Shown here: in pieces, positions 3,861 through 14,723 of the stretch | How the letters are laid out: each line of letters begins with the position of its first letter | Numbering within the stretch: position 1 is the stretch's first letter | NCBI GenBank assembly: GCA_024699595.1 | Contig: JAILPG010000313.1 | Span: 1 to 64,000 of the forward strand | Source: Lachnospiraceae bacterium | GTDB lineage: Bacteria > Bacillota_A > Clostridia > Lachnospirales > Lachnospiraceae | DNA: 64,000 nucleotides | Reading direction: 5' to 3' | Notes under the pieces: generated by a model | The model's database searches: none | Told to the model about the DNA's origin: nothing | What the model saw: the letters and a program-made list of their open reading frames with translations, nothing else | Made by a program: the position numbers and the translations under genes

Positions 3861-4977
3861 TTACGAATACCTGAACAGGATACTTAAGAAGATCCCGAAA
3901 ACGAGCGAATATGCAAGGCTTCAGTGCGAAAAAAAATGGGACCGGCTTGCAAAACCCATTCATTCACTTGGTGCATTTGAGGACATGATAAGCCGGATCG
4001 GCGGCATCCGGGGAAATACAGGAATGAATCTCGATAACAGAGTACTGCTCGTATTCTGCTCCGATAACGGTGTGGTAAGCGAGGGAGTAAGCCAGTCGTC
4101 AAACGAAGTCACTGCGAAGGTTGCAATGTCGCTTGCGAAAGGGATGAGTACGGTATGCAATCTCGTAAAGGGCAATAACATTAAGGTCGTTGCCGTTGAT
4201 ATGGGAATAAAGGATAAGAAAGAGCTGTGCCTTGAGAAAGATCTGAACAAGATCTTAAAAGGAAAGAAGCGCATACTTGACAGGAGCATATCCGCCGGAA
4301 CACAGAATATTGCAGAAGGTCCTTCGATGAAGAGAGAAGACTGCATAAAGGCGATAGTAAGCGCCATAGATATTATCGGTGAGCTTAAGAAATACGGATG
4401 TAAGATAGTACTTACAGGGGAAATGGGCATAGGTAATACCACAACATCTTCCGCCATAGCTTCGGTTCTTCTGGATCTTGACCCGGCTCTTGTAACCGGA
4501 AGAGGAGCGGGTCTTGACGATGAGGGCTATAAAAGAAAAATCGAAGTCATAAAAAGGGCGATAAAGATCAATGAACCGAAGGCTTCCAATCCGATAGATG
4601 TCATCACAAAGATCGGAGGATATGATATAGCAGCACTGTGCGGTACGTTTATAGGCTGTGCATATTACAGGCTTCCGGTCATCATTGACGGTTTTATTTC
4701 ATCGGTTGCCGCTCTTCTTGCCGTGAAGCTTAAAGAAGAGTCACGATATGTGATGATAGCAAGCCATATGTCAAAAGAACCTGCCTGTAAGATGATATTT
4801 GAGGCATTAGATCTCTCTCCCGTGATAGATGCCGGAATGCATCTTGGAGAGGGAAGCGGTGCAGTGATGCTCTTATCTCTTTTAGATAATGCGATAAATG
4901 TATATAACAGCGGTCACAGTTTCAGACGTCTCGGGATAGAACCGTACGAAAAGGAAAACAGGGCGGATAAATGCTGA
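3844..4977 (+). CDS. cobT: Nicotinate-nucleotide:dimethylbenzimidazole phosphoribosyltransferase
   Basis: CobT activates the lower-ligand base by moving phosphoribose from nicotinate mononucleotide to dimethylbenzimidazole or a related base, giving the alpha-ribazole phosphate for the nucleotide loop. Typical motifs are GEMGIGNTTT in the middle and LGEGSGAV near the C-terminus, whose Glu is the catalytic base. I place the start at the ATG at 3844, giving about 377 residues, because the longer open frame from 3745 lies inside cbiA and the family begins near the MEKRDDYEY segment. This start overlaps the cbiA end by 17 bases. The 3' end overlaps cobU by 7 bases. No gene for making dimethylbenzimidazole (bluB or bza) is in the window. 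Confidence 0.94.
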   Translation: MEKRDDYEYLNRILKKIPKTSEYARLQCEKKWDRLAKPIHSLGAFEDMISRIGGIRGNTGMNLDNRVLLVFCSDNGVVSEGVSQSSNEVTAKVAMSLAKGMSTVCNLVKGNNIKVVAVDMGIKDKKELCLEKDLNKILKGKKRILDRSISAGTQNIAEGPSMKREDCIKAIVSAIDIIGELKKYGCKIVLTGEMGIGNTTTSSAIASVLLDLDPALVTGRGAGLDDEGYKRKIEVIKRAIKINEPKASNPIDVITKIGGYDIAALCGTFIGCAYYRLPVIIDGFISSVAALLAVKLKEESRYVMIASHMSKEPACKMIFEALDLSPVIDAGMHLGEGSGAVMLLSLLDNAINVYNSGHSFRRLGIEPYEKENRADKC

Positions 4978-5522
4978 TACTTATAACAGGAGCCGCATCC
5001 GGCGGAAAAAGCAGATATGCGGAAGACCTTGCCTTAAGCCTTCCTTTCGCGCACAGGATCTATCTTGCCACAATGGAAGATAAGGAATACAACAGAGACC
5101 GGATAGACAGGCACAGATCGATGAGAGAAGGAAAGGGCTTTGAAACTGTTGAGTGTGAAACCGATATTTTAAGATCATCGGAGAGGATCGGTAAAGACAC
5201 GCTTGTCCTTTTAGAAGATATCCCGAATCTGCTTGCTAATGAGATGTTTTCAAAAAAAGAGGGGAAAGTCCCCGGATACCGGATGGAAAACAGTATGGAG
5301 ATCAGTGAAAGGCTCGGCAGGGAAATAATAACTCTTTCCGAAAAAGCCGGTACATTTATCGCGGTTACGGGAGAACTTTTATCGGACGGTAATGTATATG
5401 ATGCGGAAACAGAAGGATATTTAAAAGCGCTTTCCCGGATAAACAGGATGATCGCACATGAGGCAGACAGTTTTTTCGAAGTGGCAGCAGGCATAGGGAT
5501 ACAGCTTAAGGGAGGTAACTGA
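4971..5522 (+). CDS. cobU: CobU-type adenosylcobinamide kinase/guanylyltransferase, full-length but with an altered EVG motif
   Basis: CobU phosphorylates adenosylcobinamide and then transfers GMP to it, preparing it for CobS. The 183-residue protein has a good Walker A (GAASGGKS, residues 7-14) and the RHR segment with His48, equivalent to the guanylylated His of Salmonella CobU. The family motif NEVGxGIVP is not conserved: the aligned region reads GELLSDG (134-140), and the usual RxFRDLAG stretch after it is changed. The C-terminus (GIGIQLKGG) fits the family. The shorter paralogue at 6369 keeps exactly the motif missing here. It overlaps cobT by 7 bases and abuts cobS, so the genes are translationally coupled. 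Confidence 0.85.
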   Translation: MLILITGAASGGKSRYAEDLALSLPFAHRIYLATMEDKEYNRDRIDRHRSMREGKGFETVECETDILRSSERIGKDTLVLLEDIPNLLANEMFSKKEGKVPGYRMENSMEISERLGREIITLSEKAGTFIAVTGELLSDGNVYDAETEGYLKALSRINRMIAHEADSFFEVAAGIGIQLKGGN

Positions 5523-6293
5523 ATGAATATTTTCGGCGCTGTGGTCACGGCTTTTTCCACATACTCAAGTATTCCGATGCCTCAGATCAAATGGGATGAA
5601 AAGAACATGCGCTATAGCATGTGTGCATTTCCTCTGATCGGAGTATTTATCGGAGCATTATCGTGGCTTTTCTGTATACTGAATGAAAACTGTATACAGT
5701 CGCCGTTCTTAAAGGCGGTCATGCTGGTACTGATCCCCGTGTGGATCACGGGAGGCATTCATTTAGACGGGTTCATGGACACGGTGGATGCCATCTGCAG
5801 CAGAAAGGTAACGGATGAAAAATACACCATACTGAAGGATCCGCATATCGGTGCTTTTGCAGCGATACATCTTGCGGCACTTATCCTGTTCGAACTTGGG
5901 ATATTCAGTCTGGCCGGTAATATGAAGCCTGTAATGTTTATTCTCATATATGCTTTCAGCAGATGTCTTTCGGGTATTGCCGTAGTGACGTTTCCGGTCT
6001 GCAGGAAGAGTTCACTTCTGTTTGCTTTTTCGGATTCGGCGGATAAAAAACCCGTACGCATCATACTGGCTGTTATGGGTGTCATACTGGCCGTCATGAT
6101 GAGCTTTACTGGAATAAGCGGTGTCATCACGGTCATATCGGGGCTTCTTATGTTTGCATGGTACCGTGTGAGATCGATGAAGGAATTTGAGGGGATTAAC
6201 GGGGATATGGCAGGCTGGTTTGTATGCCTTGCAGAAGCCGTAATGTTTGCAGCGGCCATTCTTACAGAGACTGTGATCCTGCACCTTGGATAG
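5523..6293 (+). CDS. cobS: Adenosylcobinamide-GDP ribazoletransferase (cobalamin synthase)
   Basis: Integral membrane enzyme that joins adenosylcobinamide-GDP to alpha-ribazole (phosphate), the last assembly step. The 256-residue sequence is hydrophobic, with several membrane segments. It has the family acidic motif HLDGFMDTVDAICSR about residues 80-94, and DPHIGAFA after it. Its ATG directly follows the cobU stop codon and is preceded by GGGAGGT, so it is co-translated with cobU. The length is normal for CobS. Confidence 0.93.
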   Translation: MNIFGAVVTAFSTYSSIPMPQIKWDEKNMRYSMCAFPLIGVFIGALSWLFCILNENCIQSPFLKAVMLVLIPVWITGGIHLDGFMDTVDAICSRKVTDEKYTILKDPHIGAFAAIHLAALILFELGIFSLAGNMKPVMFILIYAFSRCLSGIAVVTFPVCRKSSLLFAFSDSADKKPVRIILAVMGVILAVMMSFTGISGVITVISGLLMFAWYRVRSMKEFEGINGDMAGWFVCLAEAVMFAAAILTETVILHLG

Positions 6294-6368
6294 GGGCGGA
6301 CACATTGGCCGCGGGATAAGCTGCAAGGACACCATGACATAACAGCAGGAGGCTTTTAGGGAAAGATC

Positions 6369-6713
6369 ATGATACTGATTACAGGTGCCTTATATTCGGG
6401 AAAAAGAGAATATGCACATGAAAACTACGGTGTTTCAGAGGAAGATTTGGGAAAAAGCTGCGTATTTGAAGCACAGGAGCTGGTACGTGACCCTGAGAAG
6501 TATCCTGACTTAAGTGTACTGTGCGGACAGCTTTCAAAAATGAAGGTGGTGACAGTCTCGGAAACCGGTGCGGGCGTGGTTCCTGTCGGTATAGACGAAA
6601 GGGAATACAGAGAGAGAGCAGGAGTGCTTTCCCAGATGCTTGCAAAAGAAGCAGAGACCGTAGTGAGAATGATATGCGGAATACCCCAGATCATTAAGGA
6701 CACGAACAGATGA
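6369..6713 (+). CDS. Short CobU-like protein (114 residues) with variant P-loop
   Basis: This small protein aligns with the two ends of CobU. The N-terminus MILITGALYSGKR looks like the CobU P-loop, but the last residue is Arg instead of Ser/Thr (GALYSGKR, residues 6-13). Residues 64-72 read SETGAGVVP, matching the CobU NEVGxGIVP motif, followed by the EYRERAGxLSQxLA block typical of CobU. The central part with the guanylylated His is absent, and the protein is about 70 residues shorter than normal. Its stop overlaps the cbiB start by 4 bases. It may be a subunit that complements the upstream CobU, a CobU-derived regulator, or a degenerate copy. Co-translation and good conservation of the EVG region argue against simple decay. 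Confidence 0.75.
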   Translation: MILITGALYSGKREYAHENYGVSEEDLGKSCVFEAQELVRDPEKYPDLSVLCGQLSKMKVVTVSETGAGVVPVGIDEREYRERAGVLSQMLAKEAETVVRMICGIPQIIKDTNR

Positions 6714-12926: not shown

Positions 12927-14723
12927 ATGGTACATTTTGTCGGAGCAGGTCCCGGAGCAGTGGACCTGATAACGATAAGAGGAGAAAGACTGTTAAGAGA
13001 GGCAGATGTTATAATATATGCGGGAAGCCTTGTAAATCCTGCACTACTTTCTGTCTGCAAGGATGGTGCGGTGATCCATGACAGCTCACTCTTAAACCTT
13101 GATCAGATAATTAAGATATGCGCTGATGCGGAGCGTGAAGGAAAGAATACGGTCAGGCTTCACACAGGTGATCCTTCGATCTACGGTGCCATAAAAGAGC
13201 AGTTTACTGAGCTTGACAGACTGGGGATCTCCTATGATGTAACTCCCGGTGTATCAAGCTTTCAGGGGGCAGCAGCATCCATAAAGGCCGAATATACTCT
13301 CCCTTTGGTGTCCCAGTCGATAATTATCACAAGACTTGAGGGAAGGACAAAGGTTCCCGATGCGGAAAAGCTTAATAAGCTTGCTTCCCATGGTGCATCC
13401 ATGGCTGTCTTTCTGTCGGCGGGCAATATAAAGGGAGTCGTGGAGGAGCTGTTAAAGGGTGGCATTTACACCAAAGACACCTGTGCCGCTCTTATATACA
13501 AGGCTACCTGGCCGGATGAAAAGGTCATTATCACCACGCTTTCAAAGCTTTCGGAAAAAGCGAAAGAAGCGGGGATCACAAAGACCGCTCTTATACTCGT
13601 GGGAGATTTTCTGACCGATAATAAAGTCGTGGAAAGATCTAAGCTCTATGACAGAGATTTTTCAACAGGTTACAGAAGAGGAAAGAAACAGGGAACGGGT
13701 ATATTATCATTTACCGATGAAGGTCACAGACTTTCGGAAAGGATAAAAGAAGGTCTGATATCGCAGGGCTATGACAATATCGTATCGGTAAAAAACAACG
13801 GAGATACTGCAGTTAAGGAATGGATAGGGAAGTCTTTTTACGATGTGGAAAATATCATATTCATAGGTGCCTGCGGGATTGCCGTAAGAATGATCTCTCC
13901 CTTTCTTGAGAGCAAGATCTCGGATCCTGCGGTCATAGTGAGCGATGAGAAAGGGATCAACGTGATCTCCCTGCTTAGTGGTCATATCGGAGGGGGAAAC
14001 AGTCTTGCAGAAACAATTGCCCATATTACCGGAGGAAATGCGGTGATCACTACGGCGACCGATATAGAAAACAGATTTGCGGTCGATGTCTGGGCTGAAA
14101 AAAACGGGATGTTCATTCAGAATCCACAGCGTATAAAAACCGTATCCGCAAAGCTTCTTAAGGATCAGCCGATAAGCATAAGATCCGAATATGAGATAAG
14201 AAAAAGAAATATACAGGGTGACCGGGACAGTGAGCTTATATGCATAAATGATGAAAAAGACCCGCCTGATATATACATAGGCATACATGAAGGCGGTGGT
14301 CAGAGTCTTAATCTTTGTCCTAAAACAGCAGTACTTGGTATTGGCTGTAAGAAGGGTACAAAAAAAGAGACCATAGAATCCGTTTTTGCCGATTTTTCGA
14401 AGGAGAACAGAATACTTCCGTATTGCCTGATCTCAGCTGCTTCCATAGATCTTAAGAAAGATGAGGATGGGATAAAGGGATTCTGTAAGGATCACGGACT
14501 TGCCTTTAAGGTATACAGTAAGGAAGAACTAGGTGCGCTAAAGGGAGAGTTTACCGGCTCTGAAATGGTAAAAGAGGTAACGGGCGTTGACAACGTCTGT
14601 GAAAGAAGTGCTCTTAAGTCAGCCTGTGAGTATGATGTTAATGCAGAGGTACTTGTCAGAAAATATGCAAAAGACGGGGTGACCTTTGCACTCGCTGTGG
14701 TAAGGAAAGAGTTTGAATTATGA
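12927..14723 (+). CDS. cbiFG: CbiF-CbiG fusion: cobalt-precorrin-4 C11-methyltransferase / cobalt-precorrin-5A hydrolase
   Basis: A 598-residue two-domain protein. Residues about 1-235 are a tetrapyrrole methylase (CbiF/CobM) with FVGAGPGAVDLIT and the LHTGDPSIYGA and TPGVSSFQGAAA motifs. After a short linker, residues about 250-598 are CbiG, which opens the lactone and releases acetaldehyde; it shows GACGIAVRMI, LLSGHIGGGN and the C-terminal LGIGCKKGT block. The two reactions are consecutive, so the fusion couples successive steps. The ATG at 12927 has GGGAG at 12916-12920. The end overlaps cbiH by 4 bases. Confidence 0.95.
   Translation: MVHFVGAGPGAVDLITIRGERLLREADVIIYAGSLVNPALLSVCKDGAVIHDSSLLNLDQIIKICADAEREGKNTVRLHTGDPSIYGAIKEQFTELDRLGISYDVTPGVSSFQGAAASIKAEYTLPLVSQSIIITRLEGRTKVPDAEKLNKLASHGASMAVFLSAGNIKGVVEELLKGGIYTKDTCAALIYKATWPDEKVIITTLSKLSEKAKEAGITKTALILVGDFLTDNKVVERSKLYDRDFSTGYRRGKKQGTGILSFTDEGHRLSERIKEGLISQGYDNIVSVKNNGDTAVKEWIGKSFYDVENIIFIGACGIAVRMISPFLESKISDPAVIVSDEKGINVISLLSGHIGGGNSLAETIAHITGGNAVITTATDIENRFAVDVWAEKNGMFIQNPQRIKTVSAKLLKDQPISIRSEYEIRKRNIQGDRDSELICINDEKDPPDIYIGIHEGGGQSLNLCPKTAVLGIGCKKGTKKETIESVFADFSKENRILPYCLISAASIDLKKDEDGIKGFCKDHGLAFKVYSKEELGALKGEFTGSEMVKEVTGVDNVCERSALKSACEYDVNAEVLVRKYAKDGVTFALAVVRKEFEL

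Follow-up and report, generated by a model that had tools for sequence, protein, structure and literature searches.

The 64,000-nucleotide stretch analysed here (the window; positions 1 to 64,000 of contig JAILPG010000313.1 of the Lachnospiraceae bacterium assembly GCA_024699595.1) carries a cobamide gene cluster in which two different genes resemble cobU. All genes of the cluster lie on the forward strand, in the order cobT (to 4977), a long cobU relative (cobU-L, encoding the protein L), cobS, a short cobU relative (cobU-S, encoding the protein S) and cbiB (from 6710); cobT and cbiB were named by eye, and cobS by Pfam. The end of cobT overlaps the start of cobU-L, which itself abuts cobS; 75 bases separate cobS from cobU-S, and the start of cbiB overlaps the stop codon of cobU-S. 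A preliminary description of this locus had pointed out two in-frame CobU-type proteins with complementary motif losses on either side of cobS, and both open reading frames (ORFs) and their motifs are indeed as it described them (Table 1). S retains SETGAGVVP and the RERAG stretch, has Arg at the end of its P-loop (GALYSGKR) and lacks the His region; it is 69 residues shorter than L because the middle of the protein, with the His and Walker B motifs, is missing. For L, which also contains the motif LLED, the description needs some modification: GELLSDG does stand in the place of the NEVGxGIVP block, but it is a different block, conserved across the L family, rather than a plain loss.

Table 1. 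The two cobU relatives, their motifs and cobS in the window.
Feature	Position	Strand	Basis
cobU-L, 183 residues, CobU paralogue with intact catalytic half	4971..5522	+	ORF; Pfam CobU 85.8 bits
P-loop GAASGGKS of L, residues 7-14	4989..5012	+	K 99%, S 99% in 97 L rows
His48 of L, in the canonical CobU His region (RIDRHR)	5112..5114	+	His 100% in 97 L rows at the canonical His column
GELLSDG of L, residues 134-140, replacing NExGxGIVP	5370..5390	+	Sequence; alternative block conserved in the L family
Glu170 of L; Leu/Phe in the canonical CobU column, Glu in the L column	5478..5480	+	Alignment columns
cobS, between both cobU genes	5523..6293	+	Pfam CobS 147.2 bits
cobU-S, 114 residues, CobU paralogue with internal deletion	6369..6713	+	ORF; Pfam CobU 45.6 bits
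Degenerate P-loop GALYSGKR of S, residues 6-13, Ser to Arg	6384..6407	+	Sequence
SETGAGVVP of S, residues 64-72, block missing from L	6558..6584	+	G, G, P columns 91%, 100%, 100% of 103 S rows
R78..R81-E82..G85 of S (REYRERAG), canonical Arg/acid pattern retained	6600..6623	+	98%, 100%, 97%, 100% of 103 S rows
Arg100 of S, in the aligned column of L Glu170	6666..6668	+	Alignment columns

According to published accounts, PMC4626045 among them, canonical CobU is bifunctional: it phosphorylates adenosylcobinamide, and it transfers guanosine monophosphate (GMP) to adenosylcobinamide phosphate (AdoCbi-P) by way of a covalent enzyme-GMP intermediate on a histidine, which in Salmonella CobU is His46 according to the titles of papers cited in these accounts. 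The canonical CobU/CobP structures, from Salmonella (1CBU/1C9K), Methylocapsa (8YES/8YKC) and Akkermansia (9VIS), are built from one protein each, whereas here we find two proteins or a two-domain fusion; what is missing, compared with canonical CobU, is the GxGxxP motif and the arginines in L, and the P-loop Ser, His and Walker B in S.

Both proteins exceed the cut-off of 27 bits of the Pfam CobU family (PF02283), L over profile positions 1-168 and S over positions 115-166 only, i.e. the last third, and both fit the CobU fold; the cut-off of 161 bits of the NCBIfam CobU equivalog PRK05800.1 is missed by both (70.5 bits for L and 49.2 for S). L has the P-loop GxxxxGKS and the His region and lacks the NExGxGIVP...R..RD..GR block; in S the ExGxGxxP motif and the Arg/acid pattern are present, while the P-loop Ser/Thr, the His and Walker B are absent. 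The L of the window scores 203.0 bits against the L profile vs 60.7 against the canonical profile. When 5.8 billion proteins were searched, the window L gave 314 matches and the window S gave 17, each including itself; a profile made from 15 of those 17 proteins gave 674 matches at E<=0.001, of which the best 120 are mostly about 110 residues long, and which may take in canonical CobU beyond these best 120. In a tree on 97 shared columns (29 canonical rows, 45 of 97 L rows and 45 of 103 S rows; unrooted), L, S and canonical CobU are cleanly apart, with supports of 100, 100 and 96; the last value, for canonical CobU against the rest, belongs to one split of an unrooted tree and is silent on which group is older. 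L and S are two large, separately conserved families. Chance or misannotation as an explanation for the pair is ruled out by these two families with their separate conserved motifs, and local decay of one cobU is ruled out by the same pattern being seen across Clostridia. Eight S proteins of 171-229 residues (P0013, P0014, P0015, P0017, P0169, P0177, P0200 and P0220) form a sub-family in which a conserved insertion follows the degenerate P-loop and most members also have a C-terminal extension rich in acidic residues.

The complementarity of the two proteins is best seen column by column, for which we compared rows from the fetched loci after thinning by profile score (29 of 32 canonical, 97 of 116 L and 103 of 126 S). 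The canonical columns retained in L and missing in S are YxAT, the R and H of the His motif, T.E, LL[D/E] and N. The P-loop Ser, present in 97% of canonical and 99% of L rows, is replaced in S by Arg (50%), Lys (17%) or Thr (10%), and the His/Walker B region is a gap in 99-100% of S rows. Towards the C-terminus the pattern is reversed. The first G of ExGxG is found in 100% of canonical, 10% of L and 91% of S rows; the corresponding values are 100%, at most 9% and 100% for P198, 97%, at most 6% and 98% for R204, and 76%, at most 9% and 100% for R207, where the upper bounds mean that in L the residue falls outside the three commonest of its column. Position 208 is D in 97% of canonical rows, mostly R in L, and E in 97% of S rows, while G211 stands at 97%, 32% and 100%. 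The whole ExGxGxxP and Arg/acid pattern of S is thus held at E 90%, G 91%, G 100%, P 100%, R 98%, R 100%, E 97% and G 100%. The L family has conserved features of its own, namely [T/S]NE[V/I]FSDGxxYxxxT and NLLANE.

We then turned to the distribution of the two families in one sample of 393 Clostridia genomes, searched with the Pfam CobU, S and L profiles: L was found in 58 genomes, S in 57, both together in 56, and canonical CobU in 108. A genome was assigned to L if its Pfam score was lower than its L-profile score or fell below 93.8 bits, and to canonical CobU if the Pfam score was at least 141 bits; the sets were compiled by hand from the search listings. The 172 genomes over the Pfam cut-off are made up of the 58 with L, the 108 with canonical CobU, and six that belong to neither set: G135 and G324 (both canonical-like, the latter divergent), G375 (diverged L and S, on two contigs), G132 and G393 (a Pfam match, coordinates not listed), and G191, whose S at a contig end is counted under S. 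The sole S without L in the sets is that of G191, which lies 600 bases from the contig end.

The preliminary description had raised the case of a short protein occurring widely beside a canonical CobU; using the S profile, we saw no separate S in any of the 108 canonical genomes. S-profile matches do occur in 93 of these, 90 of them inside CobU itself by their coordinates and three (G079, G311 and G384) reported by E-value only, position not given; the other 15 genomes have no match. Conversely, each of the 58 L genomes has only one L-profile match at E<=1e-8, so that no canonical CobU stands beside L at this threshold, and the idea of a canonical enzyme working alongside L was rejected for these 58 genomes. 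The pairing of L and S is strongly supported, and we take the co-occurrence as a sign that the pair has been retained over long times rather than as a set of many separate events; among 109 thinned L sequences, identity goes down to 19%, with a median of 43%.

The two genes also stay together on the chromosome. A scan of species genomes gave 134 relatives of S, of which the best 80 were kept; by their titles, 77 of these are Clostridia-type or Bacillota, two are "uncultured bacterium" (L043 and L048) and one is Bacteroidales (L064). L lies just upstream of S in 75 of these best 80 loci; in four of the other five, at most about 300 bases of contig precede S, and for the fifth (L036, from genome G005) neighbouring full-length and half-length CobU matches are found on another contig of the same genome. 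In all, G005 gives three CobU matches, one full-length and two half-length; its second S (L036, on contig C26, no L upstream) equals the S of L038 in profile scores and open-frame length, and the contig is perhaps misbinned or misassembled. Among 141 S loci, which count some genomes twice, 118 have cobS between L and S, 6 have the two side by side without cobS, 5 have them fused, and 12 contain no L; L-cobS-S is accordingly the usual order, in 118 of 129 pairs. In six loci with Lachnospiraceae titles (L059, L067, L071, L073, L078 and L079) L and S are adjacent or their frames overlap, and a phmmer search with the CobS of the window did not find cobS there.

In five genomes (G198, G336, G306, G029 and G163) L and S form a single ORF, and five database proteins of about 300 residues are also L-S fusions. 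The fold predicted for a natural fusion is a confident two-domain model (predicted local distance difference test, pLDDT, 92.4; predicted template-modelling score, pTM, 0.90). One further protein, P0093, has L and then only the beginning of S, perhaps because a contig end truncates it. Fusions of another kind are P0201 (318 residues), where S is joined to a shortened CobS, and P0011 (188 residues), where it is joined to a CobC-like domain (PF00300); an assembly error is possible in both.

One alignment column, in the strand before the last, distinguishes the three families in a different way. Canonical CobU has Leu (20 of 29 rows) or Phe (9 of 29) here, whereas 123 of 129 pairs combine Glu in L with Arg in S; after thinning the figure is 106 of 109. 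The exceptions are the Faecalibacterium pair (three loci in two genomes), with Arg in L and Gln in S, one Glu/Lys pair, and two pairs with Glu in L and Thr in S. Faecalibacterium is the only paired lineage in which the L residue has changed, and there the S residue has changed too; in both L genes that occur without S (G096 and G118) the Glu column holds Lys. A salt bridge between subunits would be expected to leave such a pattern, in which the two paralogues carry opposite charges and the Glu disappears when its partner is absent or altered; judging from the alignment, this position may mark a contact between L and S.

Based on these observations, we think it likely that L and S form an obligate heteromeric CobU, which arose when cobU was duplicated long ago and the two copies then lost complementary parts, and in which L is catalytic and S completes its site in trans. 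In this mechanism L would be the catalytic subunit, binding the nucleoside triphosphate through its P-loop and Walker B and carrying the guanylyl-accepting His; S, cut down in length and catalytically degenerate, would sit against L and bring in what L no longer has, the ExGxGVVP loop and the conserved arginines, and the L site would thereby become complete for guanylylation of AdoCbi-P (and for phosphorylation of cobinamide). By its motifs, S would have no evident chemistry of its own. Direct contact between the unfused proteins, the composite active site, its stoichiometry and its activity are what we infer here. We also lean, with rather more reserve, towards a specific form of this proposal: a Glu-Arg interface in a fixed assembly resembling F1-ATPase, with S as a pseudoenzyme donating its loop and arginines, in a branch of gut Clostridia that includes Faecalibacterium and in which some lineages later fused the pair.

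Some known systems bear comparison with such an arrangement. CobU is a trimer whose active sites lie between subunits, and the solved CobU entries have three or six chains in several cases; a review, PMC8123684, writes the enzyme as the dimer [CobU]2. The next matches listed include RecA-fold proteins and F1 subunits. In F1-ATPase, alpha and beta are degenerate and catalytic RecA-fold subunits, one with an intact P-loop and its homologous partner keeping the arginines. L and S would be alike in this respect, and the RecA-fold relationship makes a catalytic/non-catalytic pair like F1 beta and alpha plausible; F1-ATPase is nonetheless a distant fold relative with another reaction and another oligomer, and we claim no membership for L and S. 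Trypanosome deoxyhypusine synthase, unrelated to CobU in fold and pathway, is a heteromer rebuilt from two half-degenerate paralogues, and it resembles the present case in that duplication and complementary loss made the heteromer obligatory. CobY, an archaeal guanylyltransferase without kinase activity (available part of PMC4626045), catalyses the guanylyl transfer step as CobU does; it was not listed for L or S in the Pfam, NCBIfam and PDB-sequence searches, none of which was a comparison directed at CobY.

The mixed complex suggested in the preliminary description is well supported by co-occurrence, mutual exclusion with canonical CobU, gene order, fusions, the two-domain model and the Glu/Arg swap, and it might, as proposed there, restore one complete site. 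Several observations nevertheless weigh against the composite enzyme, first among them two genomes, G096 and G118 (loci L141 and L142), in whose cob clusters an L-type CobU stands without S; matches to S were absent at E<=5 and also from the 12.5-13 kb fetched around L. The answer to the question, also posed beforehand, whether the two genes always occur together is therefore that they do so in the 56 genomes and that pairing is not universal; we regard the two genomes as real exceptions. The L of both has lost the TNE part as well, and this further changed L may act without S there. (In both loci a CobC-like phosphatase frame, recognised by eye, follows cobS.) Furthermore, Fisher's test on the co-occurrence counts is extreme and treats related genomes as independent; since the sampled genomes are related, the 56 joint presences are not 56 independent events. 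The P-loop Arg, present in 97% of the 29 canonical rows and in at most 11% of L rows, has been lost in L without S restoring it. Finally, the two Glu/Thr pairs do not fit a salt bridge, and the Glu/Arg column was picked post hoc, its exceptions coming from few lineages.

In the chief rival to a composite site, S serves only assembly, stability or scaffolding, contributing no active-site residues, and the FSDG-bearing L needs nothing further for catalysis; S would then bind L, or link L to CobS and CbiB at the membrane. The conserved block of L itself and the two genomes with L alone speak for this, as do the position of cobU-S between cobS and cbiB in the window and the rare database proteins that join S to a shortened CobS or a CobC-like domain. 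However, S has retained just those conserved residues of canonical CobU that L has lost, and a pure scaffold would not need a near-invariant ExGxGVVP and the arginines that follow it; we therefore consider a purely structural S unlikely. A division of labour, which the preliminary description had offered as its alternative, with one protein as cobinamide kinase and the other as cobinamide-phosphate guanylyltransferase acting separately, could in principle follow from duplication of a bifunctional CobU; we disfavour it, as the P-loop Ser, the His and Walker B are all present in L and all absent from S, which hence has no evident chemistry, and the single-chain fusions and near-obligate pairing suggest one machine, so that we give this possibility very little weight. 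Least probable of all is that L, which retains its P-loop Lys/Ser, His and Walker B and occurs alone in two genomes, is a complete CobU beside which S is a decaying or unrelated paralogue retained by linkage, given that the S columns E, G, G, P, R, R, E and G are constrained at 90-100% and that 56 of the 58 L genomes also have S, and several genomes encode the two as a fusion.

The preliminary description knew of no described split CobU, and we found no description of a split or heteromeric one either in the literature searched, outside which most subscription papers lie, including the available parts of PMC7242693, PMC8123684, PMC4626045, PMC3814363, PMC12888040, PMC8749415, PMC6593275 and PMC8092220.

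As to the surroundings of the cluster, a scan of the window with Rfam gave zero matches at gathering scores, and no cobalamin riboswitch is therefore called. Directly 5' of the cob genes, at 1815-2429, lies a gene for a ThrH-type phosphatase of the haloacid dehalogenase (HAD) class (TIGR02137, 240.2 bits vs a cut-off of 223.4). This protein might be a phosphatase or a source of threonine phosphate for the pathway; phmmer found it in 0 of 180 fetched loci, many of which are merely 3-4 kb long. Further downstream, at 12927-14723, an ORF of 598 residues resembles a fusion of the CbiF methyltransferase with CbiG, as judged by eye without a family search.

In many gut Clostridia, the single-protein CobU appears to have been replaced by two complementary relatives that are probably functional only as a pair. 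Genome-based rules for cobamide production count CobU as one required gene (available part of PMC6593275), and homologues of L and S, where named in databases, both carry the full name of the bifunctional kinase/guanylyltransferase, although the motif set is incomplete in each. Should the pair be one enzyme, predictions of which gut bacteria make or salvage B12 ought to require both genes. The pair would also offer a testable case of a homomeric enzyme turning into an obligate heteromer by complementary loss, with the canonical, paired and fused states all extant.

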